Below are positions 5,506 through 11,672 of a stretch of 64,000 nt of DNA, piece after piece. The stretch spans positions 62,001 to 126,000 of the forward strand of contig JAFUWY010000037.1 of assembly GCA_017477245.1 (NCBI GenBank). The letters run 5' to 3'. Source of the stretch: Bacteroidales bacterium. Its GTDB lineage: Bacteria > Bacteroidota > Bacteroidia > Bacteroidales > UBA932. Position numbers and translations under genes: made by a program. The notes below the pieces were generated by a model. That model saw only the letters and a list, made by a program, of their open reading frames with translations, did no database searches and was not told where the DNA came from. Numbering within the stretch: the stretch's first letter is position 1; every line of letters begins with the position of its first letter.

Positions 5506-5510
5506 TCCTT

Positions 5511-6791
5511 ATGGATATACTGCTCAAGGGAGGAACCCTCATCGATGCCGCCGGGCGCCGCCGGGCGGACATCCTCGTCCGGGACGGCCGCATCGCGGCC
5601 ATCGGCCCGGACCTCGTCTTCGCCTCCGGCGCGGAGGTCATCGACTGCTCCGGCCGGCTCGTCAGCGAAGGCTTCACCGACATCCACGTGCATTTCCGGG
5701 AGCCCGGACAGGGCTACAAGGAGACCATCCGCACCGGCTCGCTCGCGGCCGCGCACGGCGGCTACACCACGGTCTGCGCCATGCCGAACCTCAACCCCGT
5801 GCCGGACAGCGCGGAGACCCTCGCCCTAGAGCAGGAGATCATCGACCGCGACGCCTGTATCCGCGTCCTCCCCTACGCCGCCATCACCCGCGGCCGGCGC
5901 GGGGAGCAGTTGGTGGACTTCGCCGCGCTCAAGGGCCGCTGCTGCGCCTTCTCCGACGACGGCAGCGGCGTGCAGCGCGAAGAGATGATGCGCAGCGCCA
6001 TGCAGGCCGCCGCCCGTGAGGACGTGATCATCGCCGCGCACTGCGAGGACAACACCCTGCTGCACGGCGGCTACATCCACGACGGACGCTACGCCGCCGC
6101 CCACGGCCACAAGGGCATCTGCTCCGAGAGCGAATGGGGCCAGATCGCCCGCGACCTCAGGCTGGCGGAGGAGACCGGCTGCCGCTACCATGTCTGCCAC
6201 ATCTCCTGCGCCGAGAGCGTGGAGCTCATCCGCGCCGCGAAAGCGCGCGGCGTGCGCGTGACCTGCGAGACCGGACCGCACTACCTCGCCCTCTGCGAGG
6301 ACGACCTGCAGGAGGACGGCCGCTTCAAGATGAACCCGCCGCTGCGCCGCGCCGAGGACCGGCAGGCGCTGATCGAAGGCCTGCTCGACGGCACCATCGA
6401 CGCCATCGCCACGGACCATGCCCCCCACAGCGCCGAGGAGAAATCCCGGGGCCTCGCGGGCAGTGCCATGGGCATCGTGGGCCTGGAGACGGCCTTCCCG
6501 GTGCTCTACACCGACCTCGTCCTGCCGGGCATAGTCAGCCTGGAGCGCGTCATCGAGGCGCTCACCAGCGGCCCGCGCACGGCGTTCCGCCTGGGCAGCC
6601 CCGCAGCCGGGCTGCAGCCCGGCGCACCCGCCGACCTCACGGTGATCGACCCCGATGCCGCCTGGACCGTGGACCCGGCGGACTTCCGCTCGATGGGCAA
6701 GGCCACGCCTTTCGCGGGCAAGCCCGTCCGCAGCCGCATCGTACTGACCCTCAAGGACGGCGTTCCCGTCTGGCAATCCATCCAATCATGA
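5511..6791 (+). CDS. pyrC: Dihydroorotase
   Basis: Cyclises N-carbamoyl-aspartate to dihydroorotate, the third pyrimidine step. The protein (426 residues, class I length) has the metal-binding DIHVHFREPGQ near residue 55, a conserved FSDDGSG segment, two His-containing strands (IIAAHCED, YHVCHIS) and ATDHAPHS near residue 300 carrying the catalytic Asp. ATG 5511 was chosen over one at 5493 because homologues start at the MDILLKGG strand and the -7 box overlaps the longer form. It stands upstream of, but separately promoted from, the pyrK-D-F-E-B operon. Its stop overlaps the start of the next small gene. Confidence 0.96.
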   Translation: MDILLKGGTLIDAAGRRRADILVRDGRIAAIGPDLVFASGAEVIDCSGRLVSEGFTDIHVHFREPGQGYKETIRTGSLAAAHGGYTTVCAMPNLNPVPDSAETLALEQEIIDRDACIRVLPYAAITRGRRGEQLVDFAALKGRCCAFSDDGSGVQREEMMRSAMQAAAREDVIIAAHCEDNTLLHGGYIHDGRYAAAHGHKGICSESEWGQIARDLRLAEETGCRYHVCHISCAESVELIRAAKARGVRVTCETGPHYLALCEDDLQEDGRFKMNPPLRRAEDRQALIEGLLDGTIDAIATDHAPHSAEEKSRGLAGSAMGIVGLETAFPVLYTDLVLPGIVSLERVIEALTSGPRTAFRLGSPAAGLQPGAPADLTVIDPDAAWTVDPADFRSMGKATPFAGKPVRSRIVLTLKDGVPVWQSIQS

Positions 6792-7360
6792 TGCACAGAA
6801 TACAGTTGATCCTCCTCACGGCCGCGCTCCTGCTGGCCGGCGGCCGGGCCCTGGCCCAGACCGTGCCCGAATGGAAACCCGGCCAGCTCGTGCGCAAAGG
6901 CACCTGCATCGCCGTGGATACCGTCAAACTCGACAAGGCGGCCACCCTCTGGCTCCTGGAGGGCGCCGGCGGCCCGCAGCTCAGCGACGACTGGCAGCGG
7001 TACTGCTCCCAGCGCGGCTGGGGCATCGGCCTCACCGCAGGCGGCTTCACGGTCGCAGCCGCAGGTATCTTTTACAGCACGGCCATGGTGGTGGGCGGTG
7101 CCGTCGGGTCCGCCCTGGTGGCCGTCGGCGGCGACGAGGCCGTCCAGGGCGTCTGGAACGGCATGTCGCCCCGGATCAACGGCGGCATGATCGTCGCCGG
7201 CGTGGGTGCCGTGGCCGGCATCACCGGCGTGGTGCTGCTCATCAACGGCAACACCCACCTGCGCCGCATCGTCCGGGACTGCAACGAACCCGGCGCCAGC
7301 TCCGTCACCCTGACCCTCGGCCCCACCCCCTCCGGCGTCGGCCTCGCCCTGCGGTTTTAG
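6788..7360 (+). CDS. Small exported or membrane protein of unknown function
   Basis: 190 residues, not recognised. A signal peptide is clear (MMHRIQLILLTAALLLAGG, probable cleavage after ALAQ). Two glycine- and alanine-rich hydrophobic stretches follow (about residues 77-110 and 125-150), which may be membrane segments. The remainder contains few charged motifs. The ATGATG start overlaps the pyrC stop, so the two genes are probably co-transcribed; this placement gives no strong clue to function. Two start codons (6788, 6791) are equally possible. Confidence 0.7.
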   Translation: MMHRIQLILLTAALLLAGGRALAQTVPEWKPGQLVRKGTCIAVDTVKLDKAATLWLLEGAGGPQLSDDWQRYCSQRGWGIGLTAGGFTVAAAGIFYSTAMVVGGAVGSALVAVGGDEAVQGVWNGMSPRINGGMIVAGVGAVAGITGVVLLINGNTHLRRIVRDCNEPGASSVTLTLGPTPSGVGLALRF

Positions 7361-7373
7361 GCCTTGCGAACGG

Positions 7374-7404
7374 TTGGATATTTCTCGGATTATCTTTAAC
7401 TTTG
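7374..7404 (+). promoter_or_regulatory. Promoter of the pyrK-D-F-E-B operon
   Basis: TTG (7374-7376), 20-bp spacer, then TAACTTTG (7397-7404): a good match to the Bacteroidetes -33/-7 consensus. Transcription would begin near 7410, giving a leader of about 130 nt before pyrK that contains the leader ORF and terminator described next. Confidence 0.7.
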
Positions 7405-7419
7405 CAAGGATATCACGCA

Positions 7420-7500
7420 ATGGACAGGAACCACCTCATCACCAGCTCCCGCTGCGGCGGCCTCCGGAAGGCCTCCTGCCCCTGCGTTTTTCGTTTTTGA
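7420..7500 (+). CDS. Putative leader peptide of the pyr operon
   Basis: A 26-codon ORF begins with MDRNHLITSS and ends PCVFRF, with its TGA at 7498-7500. It lies about 10 nt after the predicted transcription start. The last codons (GTT TTT CGT TTT) supply two runs of five U in the RNA, and the stop codon is 8 nt before a strong terminator hairpin. The layout resembles the coding leaders of the enterobacterial pyrBI and pyrE attenuators, where a ribosome close behind RNA polymerase prevents the hairpin forming. Coding status is inferred from this arrangement only; no strong ribosome-binding site is seen. Confidence 0.55.
   Translation: MDRNHLITSSRCGGLRKASCPCVFRF
7459..7473 (+). promoter_or_regulatory. 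Possible pause hairpin in the pyr leader
   Basis: GGCCT (7459-7463) and AGGCC (7469-7473) can pair around a 5-nt loop, shortly before the U5 tracts at 7487-7491 and 7494-7498. In pyrBI-type control such a hairpin plus U-rich template makes polymerase pause when UTP is low. The stem is short, so this is tentative. Confidence 0.35.
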
Positions 7501-7508
7501 CTTTGACC

Positions 7509-7534
7509 GGACAGCCGTTTGGCTGTCCTTTTTT
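7509..7534 (+). terminator. Intrinsic terminator (attenuator) before pyrK
   Basis: GGACAGCC (7509-7516), GTTT loop, GGCTGTCC (7521-7528), then six T: a perfect 8-bp GC-rich stem with a U-run. It sits only 7 bp before the pyrK start and inside the transcript of the pyr operon, so it makes sense as a conditional terminator rather than the end of the preceding gene. Confidence 0.85.
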
Positions 7535-7541
7535 GTAACGT

Positions 7542-8279
7542 ATGCAGAAGCGTCTCTTCAACATCGAGGGCAACGATCCCGTGGCGCGGGACACCTTCCG
7601 GCTCGTCCTGCGGACGGACGGACCGGTGGCCGTGCGCAGCGGGCAGTTCGTCGACATCGCCGTGCCGGGGTTCTACCTGCGGCGGCCCATCTCCGTCAGC
7701 GACTGCCTGCCGGACGGGGTGGTGCTCTACTACAAGGTCGTGGGCGAAGGCACGCGCGCCATGGCGGCGATGCAGCCGGGCGCGTGCCTCGAACTGCTGT
7801 CGCCCCTGGGTTCCGGATTCCATCCGGAGAAGTGCCGGGAGAGCGCCCTGCTGATCGGCGGCGGCCTGGGCGCAGCGCCGCTGTACCTGCTGGCCAGGGA
7901 GCTGCTGGCGCAGGGCAAGGCCGCGACCGCCGTGCTCGGCTTCAACAAGGCCGACGAGATCTGCCTCGCGGAGGAGCTCCGCGCGCTCGGCATCCCGGTG
8001 CACATCGCCACGATGGACGGGTCGGTGGGCACGAAGGGATTCGTCACCGACGCCATCGCCGGGGTCCGGCCCGCCTTCGACCGCTTCTACACCTGCGGCC
8101 CGCTGCCGATGATGAAGGCGGTCTGCGCGGCACTCGACGCCCCGGGCGAGGTAAGCCTCGAGGAGCGGATGGGCTGCGGCGCCGGCTTCTGCTACGGCTG
8201 CTCCGTCCAGACCCAGGGCGGGCCCCGGCGCGTCTGCGCCGACGGCCCCGTTTTCGACAAGGAGGAAGTGTTATGGTAA
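7542..8279 (+). CDS. pyrK: Dihydroorotate dehydrogenase B, electron transfer subunit
   Basis: FAD and 2Fe-2S protein that passes electrons from dihydroorotate dehydrogenase PyrD to NAD. In 245 residues: an N-terminal FAD-binding barrel with RRPISVSD, a nucleotide-binding [10 protein letters not shown] segment, and a C-terminal cluster site with Cys212, Cys217, Cys220 and Cys232 ([10 protein letters not shown] then RRVC), the expected CxxxxCxxC-C pattern. It is first in the operon and overlaps pyrD by 7 bp (ATGGTAA), which fits an obligate two-subunit complex. Expression probably depends on read-through of the terminator just upstream. Confidence 0.96.
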
Positions 8280-9190
8280 CGGACAAGAACCTCTCCGTCA
8301 GCCTCTGCGGCCTGACGATGAAAAACCCGGTCGTCCCCGCGAGCGGGACCTTTGGCTTCGGCCTCGAACTCGCCGACGCGATGGACCTGGACGTCCTGGG
8401 CGGCATCTCCCTGAAGGGGACCACCCGCGAGGCGCGCTTCGGCAACCCGACCCCGCGCATCGCCGAGTGCACCGCCGGGATGATCAACTCCGTAGGTCTG
8501 CAGAACCCGGGCATCGGCGTCCTCGTGGCCGACAAGGCCCCGGCCCTGCGCCGCATTTACGGCGGCGTGATCATCGCCAACATCAGCGGCTACTCCGTGG
8601 AGGAGTACGCCTACAACTGCGCGCAGGCGGATGCCTGCCCGGCGATCGACCTCCTCGAGGTCAACGTCTCCTGCCCCAACGTGCACGGCGGCGGGATGGC
8701 CTTCGGCACCGACGCGCAGAGCGCCGCGGCCGTCACGAAGGCCGTCAAGGCCGTCACGCACAAACCCGTGTTCATCAAGCTCAGCCCCAACGTCACGGAC
8801 ATCGTCAGCATCGCGCGGGCCTGCGAGGACGCCGGGGCGGACGGCATCACCCTGGTCAACACCTTCCTGGGGATGCGCATCGACATCCGGAAGCGCAAGC
8901 CCGTGATCGCCAACAAGATGGGCGGATTCTCCGGCCCCGCCGTCTTCCCGGTGGCCCTGCGGATGGTCTGGCAGGTGGCCCACGCCTGCGCCATCCCCGT
9001 GATGGGCTGCGGCGGCGTGCGCCGGGCCGAGGACGTCGTGGAGATGATGATGGCCGGCGCCACGGCCGTGCAGGTGGGCGCGGAGAACCTCCGCAACCCC
9101 CAGGCCTGCCCGGAGATTGTCGCCGCCCTCCCCGCCCTGATGGACGAACTCGGAATCGACAGTTTACAAGACATAATCGGTATCGTATAA
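8273..9190 (+). CDS. pyrD: Dihydroorotate dehydrogenase B, catalytic subunit
   Basis: FMN enzyme (class 1B) oxidising dihydroorotate to orotate together with PyrK, in the cytosol. 305 residues. Visible: GGISLKGTT with Lys48, NVSCPN with the class 1 catalytic Cys134 (class 2 enzymes use Ser), [10 protein letters not shown], and the phosphate-binding end [10 protein letters not shown]. The ATG at 8273 lies inside the end of pyrK, so translation is likely coupled. pyrF follows after 2 bp. Confidence 0.96.
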
Positions 9191-9192
9191 CC

Positions 9193-9963
9193 ATGGCAAA
9201 AGACGTCATCATCGCCTGCGACTTCGCCGGCAGGCAGCAGACCCTCGGGTTCCTCGACGCGTTCGCGGGACACCGCAAACCCTTCGTCAAGATCGGAATG
9301 GAGCTCTTCTACGCCGAAGGGCCGGACATCGTGCGCGAGCTCAAGCGCCGCGGCCACCCGGTCTTCCTGGACCTCAAGCTCCACGACATCCCCAACACCG
9401 TCCGTAAGGCGATGCGCGTGCTCTCCGCGCTGGACGTGGACATCGTCAACGTCCACGCCGCCGGCACCATCGAGATGATGCGCGCGGCCCTGGAAGGTTT
9501 AATTGAGGGAAGGAAACCGGGGCCCCCGAAAATCTCTGATTTACGGGGTGGTCTTGATGGCTCGCGTCCCCTGCTGATCGCCGTGACCCAGCTCACCTCC
9601 ACCAGCGAGGAGCGCATGCAGCGCGAGCTGCTGATCGGCGCCGGGATCAACGACACCATCGTGAAATACGCGCAGAACGCGCGTGAAGCCGGCCTGGACG
9701 GCGTCGTCTGCTCGCCGCTCGAAGCGGCGATGGTCAAGGACGCCTGCGGCCCGCAGTTCCTGACCGTCACGCCGGGTATCCGCTTCGCGGACGCCGCCGC
9801 GGACGACCAGGTCCGCATCACCACCCCCGCCCGGGCCCGGGAGATCGGCTCCGACTACATCGTGGTCGGCCGCCCCGTGACGGCCGCGCCCGACCCCGTC
9901 GCGGCCTACGACCGCTGCCTCCGGGAATTCCTGAACCTCGAACAAACGACTTTCCGGGCCTGA
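9193..9963 (+). CDS. pyrF: Orotidine 5'-phosphate decarboxylase
   Basis: Final step to UMP. The 256-residue protein has the catalytic tetrad region [11 protein letters not shown] (Asp60, Lys62, Asp65), NVHAAGT, and the phosphate-loop end [13 protein letters not shown]. Between LEGLIEG and [17 protein letters not shown] there is an insertion-like stretch (about residues 103-124) with AT-richer, rare-codon DNA (TTA, ATT, AGG, CTT) and an inverted repeat, unlike the rest of the operon. It falls in a surface loop between strand and helix, so activity should survive. Start ATG is 2 bp after pyrD. Confidence 0.95.
9524..9548. repeat. Inverted repeat inside pyrF
   Basis: CCCCGAAAATC (9524-9534) and GATTTACGGGG (9538-9548) are complementary at 10 of 11 positions around a 3-nt loop. 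The surrounding 60-70 bp is AT-richer than the flanking gene and codes for an apparent extra loop in the protein. It may be a palindromic element inserted in frame. Confidence 0.5.
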
Positions 9964-9987: not shown

Positions 9988-10596
9988 ATGCAAAGACAGA
10001 TAGCCAAAGACCTCCTCTCGATCGGCGCCGTGTTCCTGCGCCCCGAGGAGCCGTTCACCTGGGCCAGCGGCATCCAGAGCCCGATCTACTGCGACAACCG
10101 CCTCACCCTCTCCGCCCCCGCCGTGCGCACGCACGTCGAGGAAGGGCTCGCCGCCCTGGTGCGGGAGCACTTCCCGCAGTGCGAGGCGCTGATGGGCACC
10201 TCCACCGCCGGCATCGCCCACGCCGCCATCACCGCCACGATCCTCGGCCTGCCGATGGGCTACGTGCGGGGCGAGGCCAAGAGCCACGGCCGCACCAACC
10301 GCATCGAAGGCCGGCTGGAGCCCGGCACGAAGGTCGTCGTGGTCGAGGACCTCATCTCCACGGGCGGCAGCGTCATCGACGTCGTGAACGCGCTGCGCGA
10401 GGCGGGCGCCGAGGTGCTCGGCATCGTCAGCATCTTCACCTACGGCATCCGCAAGGGCCTGGAGCGCCTCGCAGCCGCGAACGTCGTCAACCATTCGCTC
10501 AGCAACCTCGACGTGCTCGTGGACGTAGCGGTCGAGGAAGGCTATATCAAACCCGAACAGAAAGAACAAGTCATCGCATTCCGCAACGCATTATGA
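9988..10596 (+). CDS. pyrE: Orotate phosphoribosyltransferase
   Basis: Adds ribose-5-phosphate from PRPP to orotate, giving OMP for PyrF. 202 residues with FTWASGIQSPIYCDNR (orotate and PRPP contacts), the flexible-loop region GEAKSHGRTN and the type I PRPP motif VVVVEDLISTGGS near residue 115. Starts 24 bp after pyrF, the largest gap in the operon; ends in an ATGA overlap with pyrB, indicating translational coupling. Confidence 0.96.
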   Translation: MQRQIAKDLLSIGAVFLRPEEPFTWASGIQSPIYCDNRLTLSAPAVRTHVEEGLAALVREHFPQCEALMGTSTAGIAHAAITATILGLPMGYVRGEAKSHGRTNRIEGRLEPGTKVVVVEDLISTGGSVIDVVNALREAGAEVLGIVSIFTYGIRKGLERLAAANVVNHSLSNLDVLVDVAVEEGYIKPEQKEQVIAFRNAL

Positions 10597-11672
10597 AACA
10601 CCTCATCGATCCTACCGACCTCACCAAGGAAGAAATCGACCAGATCGTCGCACTGGCCCAGGACATCATCGCCCACCGCGAACGCTACCAGGGCAGCATG
10701 GCCCACAAGAAACTCGCGACGCTCTTCTACGAGCCGAGCACCCGCACGCGGCTGAGCTTCACCGCCGCGATGATGGAGCTGGGCGGCAACGTCCTCGGCT
10801 TCTCCAACCCCCAGAACTCCTCCGTGAGCAAGGGCGAGACGGTGCAGGACACCGTGCGCGTGGTCGGCTGCTTTGCCGATATCATCGCGATGCGCCACCC
10901 GATCGAAGGGGCGCCCCTGGTCGCCTCCGAGGTGTCCCGCGTGCCGATCATCAACGCCGGCGACGGCTCCCACAGCCACCCGACGCAGACCCTGACGGAC
11001 CTCCTCACCATCCAGCGCGAGCTCGGCCACATCGACGGGATCACCATCGGTTTCTGCGGCGACCTCCGCTTCGGCCGCACGGTCCACTCCCTGATCAAGG
11101 CCCTGTCCCGCTACCGCGACATCAAGGTCGTGCTGATTGCCCCGGACGAGCTGCGCCTGCCGGACTACATCAAGCAGGACGTCTGCGACAAGATGGGCGT
11201 CGCCTACCGCGAGACCGACAACCTCGACGAAGCCATCCCCGAACTGGACGTGCTCTACATGACGCGCGTGCAGAAGGAGCGCTTCCTCGACGAGGACGAG
11301 TTCGACCGTGTCAAGGACAGCTTCGTGCTGGACGCCCGCCGCATGGCGCTCGCCAAGGAGAAGATGGCGGTGCTGCACCCGCTGCCCCGCGTCAACGAGA
11401 TCCTCACCGAGGTCGACGACGATCCGCGCGCCGCATATTTCCGTCAGGTGGAGAACGGCAAGTTCGTGCGCATGGCATTGATCGTCAGTCTGTTGGAGTG
11501 GAAGGACGATCCCGAGCACGCGATGCCGGAGCACGAGGAGCCCATCCTCAGCAGCTCCCTGCACTGCACCAACAGCAAGTGTATCTGCAACAACGAGAAG
11601 CACCAGCCCCGTTTCCGCCTCGCGGAGAACGGCATCTACCGCTGCTGGTACTGCGACAGCAAGGTCCGGTAG
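10593..11672 (+). CDS. pyrB: Aspartate carbamoyltransferase fused to a PyrI-like zinc domain
   Basis: Condenses carbamoyl phosphate and aspartate, the committed pyrimidine step. Residues 1 to about 305 are a standard catalytic chain: FYEPSTRTRLSF (carbamoyl-phosphate loop), DGSHSHPTQTL and HPLPRVNEI. After a 20-residue acidic linker a zinc-knuckle follows: Cys325-x4-Cys330 and Cys351-x2-Cys354, in HCTNSKC and CWYC. This closely resembles the C-terminal zinc domain of the regulatory chain PyrI (CxxxxC ... CxxC), which in E. coli docks onto PyrB. The N-terminal nucleotide-binding domain of PyrI is missing and no pyrI lies nearby. Total 359 residues against about 305-310 for plain PyrB. Confidence 0.95.
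   Translation: MKHLIDPTDLTKEEIDQIVALAQDIIAHRERYQGSMAHKKLATLFYEPSTRTRLSFTAAMMELGGNVLGFSNPQNSSVSKGETVQDTVRVVGCFADIIAMRHPIEGAPLVASEVSRVPIINAGDGSHSHPTQTLTDLLTIQRELGHIDGITIGFCGDLRFGRTVHSLIKALSRYRDIKVVLIAPDELRLPDYIKQDVCDKMGVAYRETDNLDEAIPELDVLYMTRVQKERFLDEDEFDRVKDSFVLDARRMALAKEKMAVLHPLPRVNEILTEVDDDPRAAYFRQVENGKFVRMALIVSLLEWKDDPEHAMPEHEEPILSSSLHCTNSKCICNNEKHQPRFRLAENGIYRCWYCDSKVR

Follow-up and report, generated by a model that had tools for sequence, protein, structure and literature searches.

The pyrKDFEB genes in the genome of an uncultured gut member of the Bacteroidales are preceded by a short leader that is probably a translation-coupled, UTP-sensing transcription attenuator, working like that of Escherichia coli pyrBI. 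As read from the sequence, this assignment is carried by the parts of the leader, their recurrence at pyr and car genes, an open and mostly unconstrained reading frame, an enrichment in U and the position of the stop codon. The original prediction of a pyrBI-like attenuator gains support from the recurrence of the element in relatives, and the PyrR, antiterminator and peptide alternatives appear weakened.

The window, i.e. the whole stretch of 64,000 nucleotides that was analyzed, covers positions 62001-126000 of one contig of genome G000 (2.38 Mb, 48 contigs). Its gene order is pyrC, an ORF without assigned family, the leader, pyrK, pyrD, pyrF, pyrE and pyrB, with all of these features on the forward strand. 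Upstream of the leader, pyrC (5508-6791; TIGR00857, above cut-off) is followed by the ORF (6788-7360), for which no NCBIfam or Pfam match was found at E ≤ 0.001. Downstream lie pyrK, encoding the dihydroorotate dehydrogenase B electron-transfer subunit (7542-8279; NF000799 at E 1.8e-57, below the curated cut-off, and PF10418 above cut-off), pyrD (8273-9190; NF005574, E 1.7e-123), pyrF (9193-9963; NF001273, E 2.2e-82) and pyrE (9988-10596; TIGR00336, E 2.9e-39), the last three above cut-off, and pyrB (10593-11672; TIGR00670, E 9.5e-104) with a C-terminal PyrI metal-binding domain (PF02748 PyrI_C, residues 323-358). For this aspartate carbamoyltransferase, PF02748 was reported at the C-terminus and no match to the PyrI N-terminal domain was reported. 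The gene between pyrC and pyrK in G015 (L062) looks different from the window ORF at 6788-7360. The best-matching named pyrC records are metagenome-assembled genomes (MAGs) labelled Bacteroidales or Bacteroidia, several of them from ruminant gut. Other close pyrC relatives (L239-L243, L245-L252) are titled Clostridia, Oscillospiraceae, Desulfovibrio or other non-Bacteroidales MAGs, which would reflect either horizontal transfer or mislabelled records.

The leader begins with a putative -33 element, TTGG (7374-7377), followed after 19 nt by a putative -7 element, TAACTTTG (7397-7404); the available text of PMC7366714 gives the consensus as TTTG at -33 and TAnnTTTG at -7. If the spacing in Flavobacterium applies, where TAnnTTTG covers -12 to -5 (PMC9723704, available text), transcription is predicted to start at about G7409. 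A leader ORF of 26 codons plus stop (7420-7500) encodes MDRNHLITSSRCGGLRKASCPCVFRF and ends in two U5 runs (7487-7491 and 7494-7498), the proposed UTP-sensitive pause region; the last U of the second run is part of the stop codon. After a spacing of 8 nt follows an intrinsic terminator (7509-7534) with an 8-bp stem, formed by the arms GGACAGCC (7509-7516) and GGCTGTCC (7521-7528), a GTTT loop and a T6 tail (7529-7534), and the ATG of pyrK stands at 7542, 7 nt beyond the T6. The arrangement originally described, a promoter, a 26-codon ORF with two U5 tracts, an 8-nt gap, an 8-bp stem with T6 and pyrK 7 bp further on, was matched base for base. Folding of 7405-7541 gave a z of -2.39 and predicted a long hairpin (7405-7499) that joins the start-codon region to the U tracts and the bases immediately preceding them. 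An inner hairpin, GGCCT-CCGGA-AGGCC (7459-7473), is a possible pause hairpin, and a similar one was seen by eye at the same place in G008 and G015. The leader start region of G000 (7419-7427, AATGGACAG) is complementary to the second arm and tail of the terminator (7523-7531, CTGTCCTTT); this pairing was dropped as a candidate element, being absent in G015 (ATGAAAAGG). Allowing up to 3 mismatches, the terminator sequence has a single occurrence in the 64 kb, where 0 were expected, and the 1 kb scanned gave two mutually overlapping terminator-like calls at the leader vs 0.9 expected from shuffles. Judged from sequence statistics, the motif is weak by itself, and its recurrence among relatives is what raises it above chance.

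Relatives were surveyed in a sample of 400 genomes drawn from the larger genus, of which 130 hold a pyrC ortholog (E ≤ 1e-80), and the region upstream of pyrC was read in all 130 loci. Terminators were called by a rule of at least 5 stem pairs, at least 6 T in the next 8 bases, a score of at least 20 and a distance of at most 140 nt from the pyrC match. The rule found a terminator upstream of pyrC at 57 loci, which together with four leaders taken by hand from before pyrK (G000, G008, G104, G393) makes 61 leaders. The remaining 69 of the 130 loci have no terminator by the rule, which misses some: in G030 and G368 a leader ORF, a U6 run and a T6-tailed hairpin were recognized by eye. Where relatives have a leader, it mostly stands directly upstream of pyrC and behind a promoter motif. 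It precedes pyrK in G000, G008, G104, G393, G089 and G091, carA in G391 and G144, and a 262-codon ORF followed by pyrK in G249. A strict or relaxed promoter motif lies 55-150 nt upstream of the stem in 57 of the 61 leaders, and in the 54 that have the strict motif and an ATG the median length predicted for the 5' UTR is 11 nt. In eleven close relatives (G282, G307, G229, G143, G201, G331, G082, G325, G346, G132, G224) the rule called no terminator upstream of pyrC, no leader was seen in the 170 nt upstream of pyrK and the covariance model described below gave no match at E ≤ 1e-4. In 10 of them pyrK follows pyrC after a few nt, and in G325 it is divergent from pyrC. The leader is therefore either easily gained and lost or located elsewhere in these genomes. 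At five loci (L080, L174, L176, L178, L172) an ORF of 9-14 codons and a terminator stand before pyrC with U runs of at most 3, perhaps with a different trigger, and at L179 (G258) a tRNA-like sequence, recognized by eye, lies directly upstream of the terminator before pyrC.

Of 51 genus leaders, 49 keep the frame of the first ATG behind the promoter open as far as the terminator, vs 30 and 28 for the other two frames and 19.6 in shuffles; the 51 have at least 45 nt to the stem, after exclusion of five shorter leaders, the tRNA case G258 and four leaders that lack a promoter motif. The leader ORF has a median of 27 codons and is at most 14 codons long in 8 of 61 leaders (G027, G191, G342, G314, G356, G137, G135, G420). 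Its stop codon falls within 20 nt of the stem base, on either side, in 46 of 54 leaders; in 7 it lies over 20 nt beyond the base and in 1 far before it. The peptide itself appears, by sequence comparison, not to be generally conserved: mean pN/pS over 10 clusters is 0.93 in the ORF frame vs 1.08 and 1.07 for the two alternative frames, and individual clusters range from 0 to 1.59. A leader-peptide profile search of 61 genomes was convincing only for G000, G008 and G015 (E ≤ 1.5e-5), all remaining matches having E of at least 0.018. A frame that is kept while its peptide mostly is not is as expected for a ribosome acting as a blocking device.

The 35 nt upstream of the stem contain on average 15.3 T in the 61 leaders vs 9.1 at 71 other distinct terminators taken from the window and the fetched loci (Mann-Whitney p 3e-15, a value that ignores kinship), and T runs of 5 or more occur in 34 of 61 leaders vs 8 of the 71 controls. 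When the 54 leaders with strict promoter motif and ATG are grouped into 27 sequence clusters, 23 clusters have a mean of at least 13 T in 35 and four are not U-rich. Fewer than 12 T in 35 were counted in 11 of the 61 leaders (G027, G104, G191, G342, G314, G356, G298, G135, G258, G411, G122), and the U runs of G008 are merely 3, 3 and 4 long. As the leaders are mutually related, p values throughout overstate their independence. The earlier expectation that leader ORF and U tracts would be conserved among relatives was upheld in two families, of which the second is described below; it is not fully general, given the short U runs of G008 and the eleven close relatives without a leader.

A covariance model built from 48 leaders (R1) gave 56 matches at E ≤ 1e-4 in the 400 genus genomes, one per genome. 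Eight of these lie outside the training set, all at pyr or car genes: pyrC in G093, G188, G369 and G342, pyrK in G089, G091 and G249, and carA in G391. Among 12 inspected weak genus matches (E 3e-4 to 8e-3), only that in G144 is at a pyrimidine gene (carA), and a scan of L349-L352 for PyrK gave no match. Across 295 genomes of the order only G000 scored below E 2e-4, i.e. no strong homolog was found outside the genus. Nine weaker order-level loci were compared with the six pyr proteins of the window and with CarA: G611, a member of another family with an R1 match (E 5e-4) 60 nt upstream of pyrC, gave a good match, L357 a weak PyrD match (E 9e-11) and seven gave none. In the family of G611, a pyrC ortholog is present in 80 of 150 genomes, all in two genera. 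Among the best-scoring 30 of these loci, a terminator lies within 160 nt before pyrC in 27, and these 27 leaders average 16.0 T in the 35 nt upstream of the stem. The first-ATG frame stays open in 26 of the 27, vs 16 and 10 for the other two frames, with a median of 41 codons, and 23 have their stop codon at most 20 nt from the stem, 3 beyond that and 1 far before it. In other Bacteroidales, where the regions upstream of pyrB were read, 45 of 48 lack such a leader and three look similar by eye (G477, G499, G458).

The consensus fold of the 48 leaders contains no element besides the terminator, whose stem covaries, changes on both sides keeping the pairing in 4 of 8 predicted pairs. Pairing of the terminator 5' arm with upstream RNA has a mean probability of 0.32 in 54 leaders vs 0.50 in shuffles (p 1e-7) and exceeds 0.5 in 9 of the 54; this analysis found no antiterminator competing for the terminator arm. 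The fold-back of the start-codon region onto the stretch before the U tract gave p 0.013 for G000 and fell below p 0.05 in 13 of the 47 leaders tested; its mean z is -1.23, and it is clearest in G001, G305, G119, G330 and G118. A hairpin at the start codon was considered as a general element and is only partly supported, as 13 of 47 leaders fall below 0.05. Attenuators of the trp, his and thr operons carry a pause hairpin close to where the leader starts; the start-codon fold-back of some lineages may, in a model of this kind, be a pause hairpin as well.

From this architecture we infer pausing, coupling, UTP as the signal and the direction of the response. RNA polymerase would initiate near 7409 and a ribosome at the AUG at 7420. 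At low UTP the polymerase would slow in the U-rich stretch 7487-7498, perhaps aided by the hairpin folding back on the start-codon region, which the arriving ribosome would melt. The ribosome would then catch up and, positioned on or close to the stop codon, which lies 8 nt ahead of the stem, cover the 5' arm of the terminator, and pyrKDFEB would be transcribed. With plentiful UTP the polymerase would cross the U tract ahead of the ribosome and the terminator would form.

A ribosome-controlled attenuator that answers to another signal, such as an energy cue, a different nucleotide or the overall state of translation, the U tract then only slowing the polymerase for synchrony, is unlikely. The evidence for coupling (open frame, stop position, 5'-arm pairing, second family) is silent on the ligand, but the enrichment is for U, with T at 0.44-0.56 in the last 25 nt of genus leaders and C, G and A each at 0.28 or less, and the strong R1 matches precede pyrC, pyrK and carA. 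Control by an RNA switch that binds a protein or ligand, PyrR-like or a riboswitch, is highly improbable. PyrR serves the pyr operons of Bacillus, and folding predicts a hairpin in the middle of several leaders; against this, the PyrR model NF003549 exceeded its cut-off in none of 61 genomes vs 6 of 14 control genomes, G000 gave no match to it at E ≤ 0.001, and an Rfam search of 7200-7700 returned nothing beyond chance (best 16.5 bits vs 111 needed). Matches to NF003549 below the cut-off, present in 35 of the 61 genomes, are taken for other phosphoribosyltransferases. The consensus fold consisting of the terminator alone and the avoidance of alternative pairing by its 5' arm likewise speak against a switch.

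An amino-acid or nascent-peptide attenuator in the style of trp or tnaC is likewise highly improbable. G000 and G008 have the motifs RCGG and ASCPC in common, and their RCGG...CPC peptide, which contains Cys, could stall a ribosome. In addition, pN/pS is low in some shallow clusters (G003 0.35, G308 0.55, G164 0.19, G154 0); yet peptides vary widely between clusters, pN/pS reaches 1.32 in the cluster of G000 itself, and by eye the genus leaders have no single regulatory codon run. No antiterminator was found in the 54 leaders, and their stops abut the terminator, whereas amino-acid attenuators place over 20 bp between leader gene and terminator (PMC4824070, available text). That the element is an ordinary terminator of an upstream pyrC-ORF unit accompanied by a chance short ORF is hardly credible: in G000 it does sit downstream of pyrC and the ORF, but in most leader-bearing relatives it stands directly before pyrC and behind a promoter motif, and the open frame and U tract recur in the genus and in the second family.

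The UTP-sensing attenuator preferred here resembles E. coli pyrBI (pyrL) in having a leader ORF, a U-rich stretch before an intrinsic terminator and a pyrimidine gene downstream. In pyrBI the U-rich stretch precedes the intrinsic terminator, and Donahue and Turnbough reportedly described nucleotide-specific pausing there in 1994. It differs from pyrBI in the gene downstream, which is pyrK, pyrC or carA, in the short predicted 5' UTR and in the folding of the start-codon region onto the pre-U stretch in some lineages. The E. coli pyrE attenuator also relies on translation up to a terminator before a pyrimidine gene, the translated ORF being the full upstream gene rph; the likeness is translation reaching the terminator, and the difference is the dedicated short ORF found here. 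With attenuators of the trp, his and thr type the leaders share an ORF and a terminator, and differ from them in that no regulatory codons and no antiterminator were seen and the stop lies beside the stem. The pyr operons of Bacillus are controlled by PyrR-dependent attenuation; the leaders are alike in being pyr attenuators and differ in having no PyrR above cut-off and no competing hairpin. According to the available text of PMC4824070, moving the stop codon in E. coli from 28 to 5 bp before the terminator lowers termination efficiency from about 90% to less than 10%, the effect of the ribosome on the terminator is gone beyond 27 nt, and the pyrBI terminator lies within the 135-bp leader gene, whereas most ORFs here stop within 20 nt of the stem. 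Pausing at pyrBI enforces coupling, which is required to block the terminator (PMC4824070, PMC5021804, available text). By analogy, the geometry of the leaders appears nearer to the pyrBI kind than to amino-acid attenuators. The available text of the transcriptome studies of B. thetaiotaomicron and F. psychrophilum (PMC7366714, PMC9723704) describes leader-peptide-like sORFs and attenuators of amino-acid operons and mentions none for pyr, and searches of the available literature gave no described case of a pyr attenuator in Bacteroidetes (Bacteroidota).

A different design takes the place of the leader at 15 of the 130 pyrC loci (L081, L082, L185, L188, L191, L192, L197, L201, L204, L214, L215, L217-L220), where TAnnTTTG is followed after exactly 4 nt by CCG-AUG (TTG-AUG in G183). 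This places the predicted +1 on the first base of the CCG (or TTG) triplet and the AUG of pyrC at +4. The 5' end can pair CCG(A)UGAA with UUCAUACGG, forming a hairpin that spans the pyrC start codon; since the motif used to select the loci already includes part of this hairpin, its pairing does not count as independent support. For a transcript beginning at C, the folding energy of the first 34 nt is -5.5 to -8.7 kcal/mol in 14 of the 15, vs -0.5 to -3.9 for one beginning at G+3, the exception being G183 (-0.2 and 0, respectively). A GC-rich hairpin followed by U4-5, terminator-like, was seen by eye within the first pyrC codons in 10 of the 15. E. coli pyrC is controlled by CTP/GTP start-site switching, and by analogy the 15 loci look like control of this kind.

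It is tentatively proposed, as a possibility of somewhat less than even standing, that pyr operons of Bacteroidota are run without a repressor by two interchangeable nucleotide-sensing designs whose evolution was independent of E. coli. One would be the UTP-sensing, ribosome-coupled attenuator of the window; the other, belonging to sister lineages in the same genus, would join a terminator inside pyrC to a hairpin that covers the pyrC start codon and acts by CTP/GTP start-site switching. If this were true, control of pyrC initiation would become operon-wide attenuation, and both designs would need coupled transcription and translation. To our knowledge such coupling is not established in Bacteroidota; the leader, a natural reporter of about 130 nt, makes the question testable there. 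The UTP-sensing attenuator would, if confirmed, extend this form of control to Bacteroidota, with a layout that is held while the peptide drifts and the element moves among pyrC, pyrK and carA. It also suggests that repressor-free control of pyrimidine synthesis has been repeatedly favored.
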